From Halorubrum aquaticum (GTDB taxonomy: Archaea; Halobacteriota; Halobacteria; Halobacteriales; Haloferacaceae): a DNA stretch of 38,293 nt. Positions within the stretch are counted from its first letter, which is position 1. Each line of letters opens with the position of its first letter. The DNA is taken from contig NZ_FOPZ01000023.1 in the NCBI RefSeq assembly GCF_900113615.1, positions 1 through 38,293 on the forward strand, in the 5' to 3' direction. Positions 24,442 to 28,270 of the stretch are shown here, piece by piece. A program made the position numbers and the translations under genes. The notes beneath the pieces were generated by a model. The model ran no database searches. It had not been told where the DNA came from and saw nothing but the letters and a program-made list of their open reading frames with translations.

Positions 24442-25635
24442 CTACCGCTCGGTCTCCGCGAGCACGTCGTCGACGACCGCGAGCGTCCGCTCCGCCTCGG
24501 CGACCCGCTCGTCGATCTCGCCGCGCTCCAGTACGGCCAGGTCGTCCTCGTCGAGGGCGTCCCGCACCTCCGCGGCGCGGCGGAGCCGTTCGTACTCCTC
24601 GGAACGGGCCAGATCGCGGATCGACCGGAGGTCGGCGACCGTCCCGTCGTCGGCGATCCGCGAAACGAGCGGGATCAGCTCGTCGATCTCGTAGGCCAGC
24701 TCGTCGCCGGGGGCCGGCGGCCACTCGAGCGTCAGCGGCTCCGCGTCGATCCGGTCGAGGAACGTCCGGTGGACGGCCACCGCGGTCCGGAGCGCCCCCA
24801 CGTCCTCGACGTAGTGTTCGAGCTTCGAGTTGGAGTAGTCGGCGTACTCGAGGAGGGTGGGGATCGGCTCCTCGCCGGCGGGATGCTCGTCGACGTACTC
24901 GCGGAGGTCAGCGGGCGGGAGGTCGGCGTCGACGAAGGGGGTCGCGTCCGCGCGCTCGAGGAAGTCGAGGACCTCACGGGCCGATTCCGAGGAGTAGAAC
25001 TCGCGGAACGCCTCGCGGACCGCCTCGTCGTACGCCTCGATCGGCTCGCGGAGCCGGGAGACGTCGGCGTCGAGGTCGGCGTCCGCCATGTCGGCGACCT
25101 CGCGGAGTTCGGAGAGTCGGTCGGCGAGCGCGCCGCGGGCGTCGGTGGCTGACTTCCGGGCGCTTCGATACGTGTCGATCGCGTCGTCGCGGTCGGCGAG
25201 CAGGTCGACGTAGTCGCCGGCGGGTTCGAGCGCCTCGCGCGCTGCCGCGAAGTCGCTCTCGGAGAGCCGCCGCTTGTCGACGGCCTCGTCGGCGGCGGCG
25301 AACGCGTCCGCCGCGGGGACGTCGTCGTCGACGTCGACCGCATTCGCGAACGCTCCCTCGAACTGGACGTAGGAGCCGAAATCGCCCGTGCCGACCGCGT
25401 CCTCCTCGTACTGGTCGAGCACGCGGTGTGCCCGGCGGTAGGCGTCGGCGGCGGTCTCGACCCGGTCCTCGCCGAGGTCCGCGATCCGCGATTCGAGCCG
25501 ACGGAGCTCGTCGTACCGCTCGCGTAGCTCCGCGGCCGCCTCGCCGGCGGACCGGATCGCGTCGGCGTCGGGATCGGCGGCACGATCCGCGTCGGAGTCG
25601 GCGTCCGCGGCGGGACCGGTTTCCGGGGGGACCAT
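24442..25635 (-). CDS. Coiled-coil haloarchaeal protein (DUF7118-like)
   Basis: A 397-residue, very acidic, alpha-helical protein with long heptad-like stretches ('AAAELRERYDELRRLESRIADLGEDRVE', 'AADAYRRAHRVLDQYEEDAVGTGDFGSYVQFEGAF', 'DDAIDTYRSARKSATDARGALADRLSELREVA') and a C-terminal helix pair ending 'VAEAERTLAVVDDVLAE'. No signal peptide or catalytic motif is visible. It resembles a haloarchaeal family I recall as DUF7118. Its ATG (25633-25635) overlaps the TGA of hisI by one base, so it is translated from the hisI transcript; the reason for that linkage is unknown. Confidence 0.8.
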   Translation of the reverse strand: MVPPETGPAADADSDADRAADPDADAIRSAGEAAAELRERYDELRRLESRIADLGEDRVETAADAYRRAHRVLDQYEEDAVGTGDFGSYVQFEGAFANAVDVDDDVPAADAFAAADEAVDKRRLSESDFAAAREALEPAGDYVDLLADRDDAIDTYRSARKSATDARGALADRLSELREVADMADADLDADVSRLREPIEAYDEAVREAFREFYSSESAREVLDFLERADATPFVDADLPPADLREYVDEHPAGEEPIPTLLEYADYSNSKLEHYVEDVGALRTAVAVHRTFLDRIDAEPLTLEWPPAPGDELAYEIDELIPLVSRIADDGTVADLRSIRDLARSEEYERLRRAAEVRDALDEDDLAVLERGEIDERVAEAERTLAVVDDVLAETER

Positions 25636-26015
25636 CAGTACACCTCGTCGGGGTCGAACACTCGCTCGCCGACGTTCTCGCCGTCGATCGTGCGGTGGAA
25701 ACACGACCGGTGGCCGGTGTGACACGCGCCGACCGACTGGTCGACGAGGTACAACAGGGTGTCGGCGTCACAGTCGACGCGGACCTCCTCGACGGCCTGG
25801 GTGTGTCCCGAGGAGCCGCCCTTGTGCCACAGCTCCTCGCGCGATCTGGAGTAGTAGTGGGCCTCGCCCGTCTCGCGGGTCAACTCGAGGGCCTCCGGGG
25901 AGACGTACGCCAGCATCAGCACCTCGCCGTCCTCGGCGTCCTGTGCGATGGCGGGGACCAGCCCGTCCTCGCCGAAGTCCACCGCCACGTCGGTGTCCGC
26001 GTCGGCCTCGCTCAT
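25635..26015 (-). CDS. hisI: Phosphoribosyl-AMP cyclohydrolase
   Basis: A 126-residue HisI, opening the adenine ring of PR-AMP in histidine synthesis (step 3). All hallmarks are present: '[17 protein letters not shown]', '[21 protein letters not shown]', the metal-binding '[13 protein letters not shown]' and the C-terminal '[12 protein letters not shown]'. It is a stand-alone enzyme without a fused HisE domain. No other his gene is in the window, which fits the scattered his genes of haloarchaea. First gene of an overlapping pair with the coiled-coil protein. Confidence 0.96.
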
Positions 26016-26349
26016 ACGTCGCCGGAGGCGGGCCCCTCGAATAGGCCTTTTGTTAACGTGTCAGAGAACCGTTCGCACACGTCCCATCGGATCACGAGTG
26101 AACTGCTCAACATCCACCTTTTTCTCGTCGGGTTCCCGGCGCTCACTGCGTTCGCTTCGGGAACCACTCCTCGAAAAACCTGGAGGGAAAAAGCCGACTT
26201 CGCCGTCTTCGACGGCTCCGTCGGTGAACCGCTCACTCCGTTCGCGGACGCTTACTACAGGGGACTCACGGATCGTTCAGCACAGAAGACTCACGGATCG
26301 TTCAGTACAGAGGAAGACCTTTTCATATGGATGGGAGTAATGAGGGCAG
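26016..26349. other. Gene-free stretch with palindromes and tandem repeat
   Basis: No gene is supported in these 334 bases between hisI and the first island gene. They contain GGTTCCCG...CGGGAACC (26131-26138 / 26158-26165) and CCGC...GCGG (26230-26233 / 26244-26247), whose loops both hold GCTCACT(G/C)CGTTCGC (26141-26155, 26231-26245). A 25-bp tandem repeat follows. The sequence looks like the extragenic palindromic elements seen near mobile DNA in haloarchaea. Confidence 0.55.
26263..26312. repeat. 25-bp tandem repeat, two copies
   Basis: Copies at 26263-26287 and 26288-26312 (23 of 25 bases identical; core ACTCACGGATCGTTCAG) end seven bases before the TATA box of the small membrane protein gene. 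They could be upstream regulatory sites or a duplication left by an insertion. Confidence 0.85.
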
Positions 26350-26547
26350 ATGTCTGACACTGAGTTCCCGTCCTCATGGACTGACCCCCGATACGTTGCG
26401 GCTATCGTCAGCGTGATCGCTACCGGCGCACTCTACTTTTATGCTGCCCTCACGCAATCTGGGCTAACTATAGAAGAAATCACGCTTGTGATATTCGCTA
26501 TTCTTCTCCCGACATCAATCGCATACGAAATCGCTCGCCGTTTGTGA
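26350..26547 (+). CDS. Small two-helix membrane protein (island gene 1)
   Basis: A 65-residue protein with two hydrophobic segments: 'YVAAIVSVIATGALYFYAAL' (about 15-34) and 'ITLVIFAILLPTSIAYEI' (44-61), a short polar N-terminus and 'ARRL' at the end. Codon use is markedly AT-richer than the neighbours (for example 'cta act ata gaa gaa'). A TATA element CTTTTCATAT (26319-26328) lies 26 bases before the ATG, right after the tandem repeat. No homologue is recognised; it could be an immunity, holin-like or stress micro-protein. Confidence 0.65.
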   Translation: MSDTEFPSSWTDPRYVAAIVSVIATGALYFYAALTQSGLTIEEITLVIFAILLPTSIAYEIARRL

Positions 26548-26643
26548 ACTAACTATAGCAATCCGCTTCATTGACACACCCACCTATCGATTGTTTCGGT
26601 AGCGGTAGTGTCGAACCAATAGTATTTCAACAGAGTCCAATTC

Positions 26644-26766
26644 CTATGAATGGCGAACGCATCGATACAGCAGGACAAAGAGTCCCGAGGTGACTGCGGC
26701 AGCGTCCGTTACGAGCGCAATCCATGGCTCTCGAAGCAGGTAGCCGAGGGCAGCGGCAGCCACCAC
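26644..26766 (-). CDS. Possible 40-residue membrane micro-protein (island gene 2)
   Basis: A short minus-strand frame from GTG (26764-26766) to TAG (26644-26646). It encodes a hydrophobic hairpin: 'VAAAALGYLLREPWIALVT' followed by 'DAAAVTSGLFVLLYRCVRHS'. A TATA-like AAAATAG (26794-26800) lies about 31 bases upstream. The plus strand also has a 95-codon open frame here, but its product lacks hydrophobic or family character and overlaps the next gene. It may instead be a remnant of a larger membrane protein. Confidence 0.35.
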   Translation of the reverse strand: MVAAAALGYLLREPWIALVTDAAAVTSGLFVLLYRCVRHS

Positions 26767-26828
26767 ACCGCACTACCACGTCTAAACAATGACCTATTTT
26801 GTGGACAGTCGAGCCAAGAATTTGGGAG

Positions 26829-26838
26829 ACATATATTT
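26829..26838 (+). promoter_or_regulatory. TATA box of the 58-residue membrane protein gene
   Basis: ACATATATTT is centred about 27 bases before the ATG at 26861, the usual spacing for a leaderless haloarchaeal gene. It is the main reason to believe in the short gene downstream. Confidence 0.65.
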
Positions 26839-26860
26839 GTGCTGCTGGGTATTATGACGT

Positions 26861-27037
26861 ATGAGATGGGAAATTTGGACGCTTGCGGGATTATACGTGC
26901 TCGTCGGAATCGGACTGTTCTACAGCTTGGCTATTGACTCGGACGAACTGTTTCTCACCGTGACTGCCGCAGTGTTTGCCCTGATGGGCCCGATGGCATA
27001 CCTCGTATATAAAAAGCAGATTAGTGACGGAGAGTGA
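26861..27037 (+). CDS. 58-residue two-helix membrane protein (island gene 3)
   Basis: An ATG-to-TGA frame of 59 codons. The product has helix 1 'IWTLAGLYVLVGIGLFYSLA' (5-24), a short acidic loop 'DSDE' and helix 2 'LFLTVTAAVFALMGPMAYLVY' (30-50), ending 'KKQISDGE', which fits the positive-inside rule for a cytoplasmic C-terminus. A clear TATA box supports the start. The overlapping frame (ending 26937) lacks such features. Function unknown; gene order and composition tie it to the neighbouring island genes. It ends 11 bases before the stop of the convergent island gene 4. Confidence 0.65.
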   Translation: MRWEIWTLAGLYVLVGIGLFYSLAIDSDELFLTVTAAVFALMGPMAYLVYKKQISDGE

Positions 27038-27048
27038 GTGGTCGCAAG

Positions 27049-27264
27049 TCAGATTGAATCGGCATCAGGCCGCGTCTTCTGTGCCATATACACGAGTAAT
27101 CCGACTATCCCAAAGAATCCATATACGACTCCACGAAGTCGTGGGGACGATTGCTCTCGTTTGGTAGCGTCCCGGGCGACATAATAGCCCACCGTTGGCC
27201 AAAAAATCAGTTGGTAGAGGCCGAAGCGGATGAGCAAACCATTATATGCGGTAAGTATGTCCAC
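27049..27264 (-). CDS. Small membrane protein (island gene 4)
   Basis: A 71-residue protein with 'LLIRFGLYQLIFWPTVGYYVARDATKR' and 'GVVYGFFGIVGLLVYMAQ' hydrophobic parts separated by a basic loop 'KREQSSPRLRG'. The arrangement recalls the short PLDc_N-like two-helix proteins of archaea ('YxxRDAxKRG'), but the match is weak. The start is GTG 27262-27264, six bases after the stop of the upstream gene on the same strand, so the two form an operon. AT-rich codon use. Confidence 0.65.
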   Translation of the reverse strand: MDILTAYNGLLIRFGLYQLIFWPTVGYYVARDATKREQSSPRLRGVVYGFFGIVGLLVYMAQKTRPDADSI

Positions 27265-27270
27265 GCGTAC

Positions 27271-27630
27271 CTACTTCCCACTGGCCCGTTCACCGGCATC
27301 TTGGATTTTACCGTAGGCAGGCGCAAGCACGTAATCGACTACCCCGAGCGCGACGATGAATCCCGCCAGTCGAAGTCCGCTGAAGCCGGTATCGGTCCAT
27401 AGATCCATGAGGACAACCAGCCCAGCCACCCCGATTCCGACCCCGATCCCGACAGTCAACTCCCGTCGATATTCACCCCACCAGACGATGATACCAGCAC
27501 CCAGCAGCACGATACCACTCACAACTGCATCAATACCAAATGACAGTCCACCGAAGGCGAGCCCACCCAGTATCAGTCCGATCCCGACCCGTCGAAGTTG
27601 TTCGACTGGATCAAGTTCCTGCTCACTCAT
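27271..27630 (-). CDS. Four-helix membrane protein (island gene 5)
   Basis: A 119-residue membrane protein: 'VGIGLILGGLAFGGLSFGIDAVVSGIVLLGAGIIVWW' in two helices, 'LTVGIGVGIGVAGLVVLMDLW' and 'LRLAGFIVALGVVDYVLAPAYG', with short loops and a charged tail. Start ATG 27628-27630 (MSEQELDP). The composition is lower in GC than the chromosome around it. It is the first gene of a two-gene minus-strand operon with island gene 4. No family recognised; a Gly-rich helix packing suggests an oligomeric or channel-like bundle, which is speculation. Confidence 0.7.
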   Translation of the reverse strand: MSEQELDPVEQLRRVGIGLILGGLAFGGLSFGIDAVVSGIVLLGAGIIVWWGEYRRELTVGIGVGIGVAGLVVLMDLWTDTGFSGLRLAGFIVALGVVDYVLAPAYGKIQDAGERASGK

Positions 27631-27793
27631 ACCAGACACTTCATCACACGAGCACAAAGCACTAAGGTAATTATAGAATCTTAGCGGTCAATACGCACGT
27701 CGACTCTGACAGAGGATTCACTAATACAGATCCTGGATGAAATTGACGTCCGCTCGCTCTCGCTCCCGAGCGTGTGGCGCGGCCACCATCCGC

Positions 27794-28270
27794 CTACTCC
27801 CGGCGCAACACGAGCGCGTCGCCGTCGGCGTACGCGCCCGGTCGGCGGTCCACGACGTCGAACCCGCACGTCTCGTAGAGCGCGAGCGCGGCGTCGTTCC
27901 CGGGATGGGCTTGGAGCGTCACGGGGCCGGTCGCGTCGTCGACGACCGCCGCGAGGAGCCCGCGGGCGCGACCCTCCCGGCGGAAGTCGGGCGCGACGAC
28001 GAGTTCGGCGAGGTGACAGCCGGACCGGGTCGGCGCGTCCACCGGGAGCGCGTAGCCGACGACGGGACCGCCCCCGGCGGTTGAACCGCCCGCGTCGTCG
28101 GCTGCGCGGCCGTCAGCGACGCTCACGAAGCCGGAGTCGACGGCGATCCCGTACTCGAGCAGGTCCGGGCTCGGCTCCCGGAGGTGGGCCTGGAGCGTCC
28201 GAACCCGGTCGGCGTCGGCGGGGCGGATCGGCCGGACCCGCGGGTCGGAGTGGTCCTCCAGGTCGGTCAT
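27794..28270 (-). CDS. GNAT-family N-acetyltransferase
   Basis: A 158-residue acetyl-CoA-dependent acetyltransferase of the RimI-like GNAT type. 'VRPIRPADADRVRTLQAHL' starts the domain, 'CHLAELVVAPDFRREGRARGLL' is motif A (acetyl-CoA pyrophosphate loop R-R-E-G-R-A) and 'GNDAALALYETCGFDVVDRR' is motif B. An acidic Gly/Ala/Asp-rich loop is inserted at about residues 53-68. Target (protein N-terminus or small molecule) unknown. The ATG is four bases after the stop of the DUF92 gene, so it is the second gene of that operon. High-GC codon use resumes here after the island. Confidence 0.9.
   Translation of the reverse strand: MTDLEDHSDPRVRPIRPADADRVRTLQAHLREPSPDLLEYGIAVDSGFVSVADGRAADDAGGSTAGGGPVVGYALPVDAPTRSGCHLAELVVAPDFRREGRARGLLAAVVDDATGPVTLQAHPGNDAALALYETCGFDVVDRRPGAYADGDALVLRRE

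Follow-up and report, generated by a model that had tools for sequence, protein, structure and literature searches.

The window analysed here is a contig of 38,293 nucleotides from Halorubrum aquaticum, whose genome comprises 3.18 Mb in 40 contigs. Within this contig of ∼70% GC there is a low-GC patch (∼50–55% GC) at 26319–27660, with hisI as its left neighbour (25635–26015, minus strand) and a GNAT acetyltransferase gene as its right neighbour (27794–28270, minus strand). In 600-bp windows, the GC content of this island was 0.505–0.545, compared to 0.69–0.76 to the left and right, confirming the deviant base composition that had been noted in the initial annotation. That annotation also described five hydrophobic ORFs of 65, 40, 58, 71 and 119 residues, facing both ways and including one operon pair. 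Listing and translating the ORFs placed all five as described, and all were hydrophobic. P1 (65 aa; 26350–26547) and P3 (58 aa; 26861–27037) lie on the plus strand, and P2 (40 aa; 26644–26766), P4 (71 aa; 27049–27264) and P5 (119 aa; 27271–27630) on the minus strand. P5 and P4 form the operon-like pair, with P5 upstream and 6 bp between the two. By eye, TATA-like octamers were seen ∼23–30 nt before the ATG codons of P1 and P3 and ∼45 nt before P5.

A somewhat wider region, 26294–27701 (1408 bp), matches plasmid NZ_CP147875.1 of Haloplanus sp. GX21 with 97.9% identity and no indels. The low-GC unit is thus real, but its bounds lie slightly outside those first assigned to it. The gap between hisI and the GNAT gene, a synteny comparison proposed in the initial annotation, was <170 bp in 24 of the 26 related loci of the genus where both genes were found. 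The site holds ∼0.5 kb of other DNA in two close relatives and different genes in two. Given the plasmid identity and the usual adjacency of hisI and the GNAT gene in the genus, the island is, as judged from these alignments, a recent plasmid-linked insertion and not a resident system.

No convincing inverted repeats were found around the whole island. A dispersed repeat of ∼146 bp lies just to its left (26108–26262) and has ∼18 more matches in the same genome, at 79–95% identity. Two 25-nt direct repeats, 88% identical, occupy 26257–26306, abutting the left edge and running into the block; the repeated motif resembles intergenic sequences 5′ of hisI in relatives. The site 5′ of hisI is itself variable in close relatives (L133 and L134), with lipoprotein-like and PQQ-like genes in G110 and a carA-like gene in G126.

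Homologs of the island proteins were counted in 170 genomes of the family, the genome of the window included. P1 was found in 25, P4 in 18, P3 in 13 and P5 in 9 of these, and all four have cross-genus homologs. Where dS was measurable, dN/dS was 0.05–0.09 for P1, 0.25 for P3, 0.14 for P4 and 0.10–0.23 for P5. The window and GX21 sequences differ at 15 of 1074 coding positions and at 14 of 334 non-coding positions (Fisher p = 0.003); P4 starts with GTG in the window and with ATG in GX21. From the cross-genus homologs, the low dN/dS values and the smaller share of coding differences, P1, P3, P4 and P5 are taken to be real genes under purifying selection. The 40-residue ORF fared differently. P2 gave only weak matches, in 4 of the 170 genomes (again including that of the window), and showed no synonymous and two non-synonymous changes. 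It is similar to the C-terminal portion of a plasmid ORF for a 61-aa membrane protein (116 bp at 71.6% DNA identity), of which it is probably a shortened remnant, and its status as a gene is unsupported. Four of the five proposed protein genes therefore stand.

The best relatives of the island proteins are plasmid-borne, and several lie within insertion sequences (IS). Relatives of P3 occur in identical multi-copy 1.2-kb elements that correspond to ISHla2 of Halorubrum lacusprofundi, where the P3-like gene is placed between the transposase and the right TIR (TIRs GGCTCTGTTGAAATCCT/AGGATTTCAACAAAGCC). Homologs of P4 in Halomarina BCD28 and of P5 in a Halobacterium DL1 plasmid, in Halobaculum and at locus L011 are cargo in the same arrangement, and at locus L029 a P4 homolog is the sole gene between two TIRs. 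Some copies of these elements have TSDs, and the elements carrying the homologs have an IS5-type DDE transposase and TIRs. These homologs of P3, P4 and P5 are passenger genes, being non-transposition genes between TIRs; the window copies are orphans. Further small membrane-protein genes near loci with P1–P5 relatives also match IS cargos. One ISHla2 copy is truncated and keeps just the P3-like gene and the right TIR.

A comparable remnant lies beside P1 in the window. At 26608–26637 (minus strand) there is an IS5-family right end comprising a TIR and subterminal bases, with a 17-bp TIR match carrying two mismatches, for which 0.02 occurrences are expected by chance in the window. The remnant lies 73 nt past the P1 stop codon, a spacing common to the window, GX21, L041 and L042, and the TIR of L042 is perfect. 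The GX21 copy of this end matches, at 28 of 28 bases, the corresponding end of an IS from Halobaculum that carries P5 (G018). Most P1 homologs have no TIR. The island itself contains this one TIR remnant and has no transposase, no second TIR and no TSD, and is therefore not an IS5 element. The best transposase relative in the same genome is 44% identical and is located away from the island. Of six related IS5 copies in that genome, five are compact, with an inverted repeat ≤∼50 bp from the transposase end and no cargo.

To survey the elements that carry such cargo, we started from 253 transposase matches and examined the best 80, all of which were haloarchaeal. The transposase is of the IS5 type (NCBIfam NF033579, 216.8 bits against a cut-off of 140) and also matches Pfam DDE_Tnp_1. 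At 58 of the 80 loci both TIRs were found, the left arm varying little (55–61 bp, usually 55), and 28 of these 58 elements have 8-bp TSDs. The remaining 22 loci had no usable TIR pair under our rule, several lying at contig ends and several having a right TIR farther away. Homology between elements ends ∼20 bp past the transposase stop codon and returns 20–60 bp from the right end. The compartment between the transposase and the right TIR was analysed in 55 elements, where it measured 150–1300 bp; two elements had short compartments. The longest ORF was scored in each, a rule that may pick a spurious frame, and encoded at least two TM segments in 30 of 55 compartments, compared to 1 of 52 right flanks and 0 of 55 shuffled sequences. 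For at least one TM segment, the figures were 35/55, 7/52 and 4.3/55, respectively.

The compartments fell into 48 distinct clusters among the 55 elements. Elements whose transposase genes are >85% identical in DNA sequence form 374 pairs, of which no more than 8 have ≥100 bp of compartment sequence in common. The stretch from the transposase to the right TIR is thus an exchangeable slot, set opposite a near-constant left arm. Other compartments hold lipoprotein, thioredoxin and methyltransferase genes, and a Pfam scan of ten non-membrane or unclear cargos matched eight: maltose acetyltransferase, DUF5615, a PLP enzyme, TrmO, an O-methyltransferase, SnoaL, thioredoxin and phosphatidylserine decarboxylase. 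The DUF5615 match is a PIN-like gene in the compartment of locus L193 and may be a toxin-type cargo.

The reading that we consider probable is that the island consists of orphaned cargo genes of one haloarchaeal IS5 group, and that the block was moved with plasmids. The genes would belong to the cargo pool of a group of elements built from a near-constant left module (TIR GGCTCTGTTGAAATCCT, a usually 55-bp arm and the transposase) and a short constant right end, with the intervening gene differing in nearly every one of the 55 elements and most often encoding a small membrane protein. Truncation of an element would leave a cargo gene and the right TIR alone, as in the ISHla2 remnant that keeps P3 and as we infer for P1 in the window. 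Such truncation could allow arrays of orphaned cargo to accumulate on plasmids, and these arrays would then move in blocks. The direction of transfer and the route of entry are likewise inferred: the block of small membrane-protein genes would have arrived recently with, or from, a plasmid.

The main alternative runs in the reverse direction and is a substantial, although clearly less probable, possibility: the small membrane-protein genes would be native to plasmid islands and be picked up occasionally by IS, making the window an ordinary plasmid fragment in which the TIR remnant is incidental. It draws on clusters that have no TIRs nearby, namely the P3, P4 and P5 relatives on the DL31 plasmid, where P3 faces P4, and the clusters of P4, a long P3 and P1 on other plasmids, as well as on the many TIR-free P1 copies. 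Against it are the TIR remnant 73 nt past P1 at several loci, the truncated ISHla2 retaining cargo and TIR alone, P4 alone between two TIRs at L029, and the presence of cargo in nearly all members of the IS group. Both processes, IS depositing genes and IS capturing plasmid genes, may operate; clusters such as the TIR-free P3/P4 pair of DL31 and the P4/P3-long/P1 groups may have been the source of genes in the elements and not their deposit.

More generally, the case appears evenly balanced for an IS5-type group that nearly always carries one exchangeable cargo gene and leaves genes behind in the manner of a cassette system, building the small-membrane-protein islands of plasmids; some mechanism would swap the cargo and keep the transposase and ends. 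This would supply a concrete vehicle for many orphan small membrane-protein genes of haloarchaeal plasmids. As nearly all elements of the group have a cargo slot and its content hardly ever recurs, the way in which a simple IS captures and swaps single genes can be tested in laboratory haloarchaea, as can the value of small membrane proteins to the element or the host.

Insertion sequences carrying passenger genes are known under the concept of the transporter IS. The elements described here (of which ISHla2 is the named example) resemble these in having TIRs, an IS5-family transposase, a gene unneeded for transposition and, in many copies, TSDs. They differ in that almost all of them carry cargo, in that this cargo is exchanged between transposases that are near-identical, and in that it consists mostly of small membrane-protein genes. 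With integron gene cassettes the haloarchaeal group shares a constant mobile module and an interchangeable single-gene slot; in contrast, no integrase or attC was identified in it, and every element is a transposon in itself. Archaeal ‘dark matter islands’ (PMC4158269) are likewise clusters in which small membrane genes and mobilome genes evolve fast, whereas here there is a concrete IS5-group vehicle with TIRs. Hlac_3088, carried as a passenger by a transposon of Halorubrum lacusprofundi, the species of ISHla2, is also predicted to encode a membrane-anchored protein and has a proposed role in virus exclusion (PMC10544981); it is a single case. In the open-licence papers searched, we found no description of a cargo-swapping IS5 group.

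A third explanation, which we regard as unlikely, is that P5, P4 and P3 cooperate as a dedicated membrane-acting immunity, exclusion or toxin–antidote module, the kind of function that the initial annotation had suggested. Gene arrangement provides some basis for it. Besides the 6-bp P5–P4 spacing, there is a 4-bp overlap between P5 and P3, in the order P5 then P3 on the DL31 plasmid and with the P3-like gene leading in G120; P3 faces P4 in the window as on DL31, and the genes are under purifying selection. Subsets of the genes are thus found side by side more than once, this facing P3/P4 pair being one case and P5 next to P3 or P4 another, so some functional link is possible. However, the genes occur mostly singly and with a patchy distribution, and the IS cargo pool includes thioredoxin, methyltransferase, SnoaL and other enzymes. 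The profile searches recommended for each protein were also negative: P1–P5 gave nothing above cut-off in Pfam, NCBIfam or PADLOC. No evidence for a toxin–antidote, immunity or other defence role was obtained. What remains of the proposed undescribed system is a foreign, mobile-element-linked set of genes that merits following up; it is not one five-gene system, as the genes occur singly or in varied combinations.

P4 is predicted to fold as a helical membrane protein (pLDDT 81), and the predicted structure of P5 is of low confidence (mean pLDDT 59). Our assignment of function is tentative and open to considerable doubt: the products would be helical membrane proteins, probably non-essential accessory proteins of the envelope, some of them paired (P5 with P4 or P5 with P3), since P5 shares an operon with either partner and the two products may act together in the membrane.

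Derivation from a virus, with the island as a provirus remnant, is very improbable. Low GC content and small membrane proteins would fit the virus-derived module that had been envisaged, but P4 and P5 have no match in the phage collection, P1–P5 gave nothing above cut-off against PHROGs (best E ∼0.001, with an uncharacterised family) and the closest relatives are on plasmids. Least credible is that the ORFs arose by chance in AT-richer DNA and owe their hydrophobicity to base composition: T-rich codons do favour hydrophobic residues and P2 fits chance or decay, but the dN/dS values of 0.05–0.25 refute this for the other four of the five ORFs, and no shuffled IS compartment gave a longest ORF with two TM segments.

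Plasmid loci with relatives of P1, P3 and P4 or of P5 (L083–L085, L088 and L143) have as a neighbour a gene that matches an OB fold weakly (below cut-off), and often a TFB gene as well, forming a recurring plasmid habitat of membrane-protein genes of this type.
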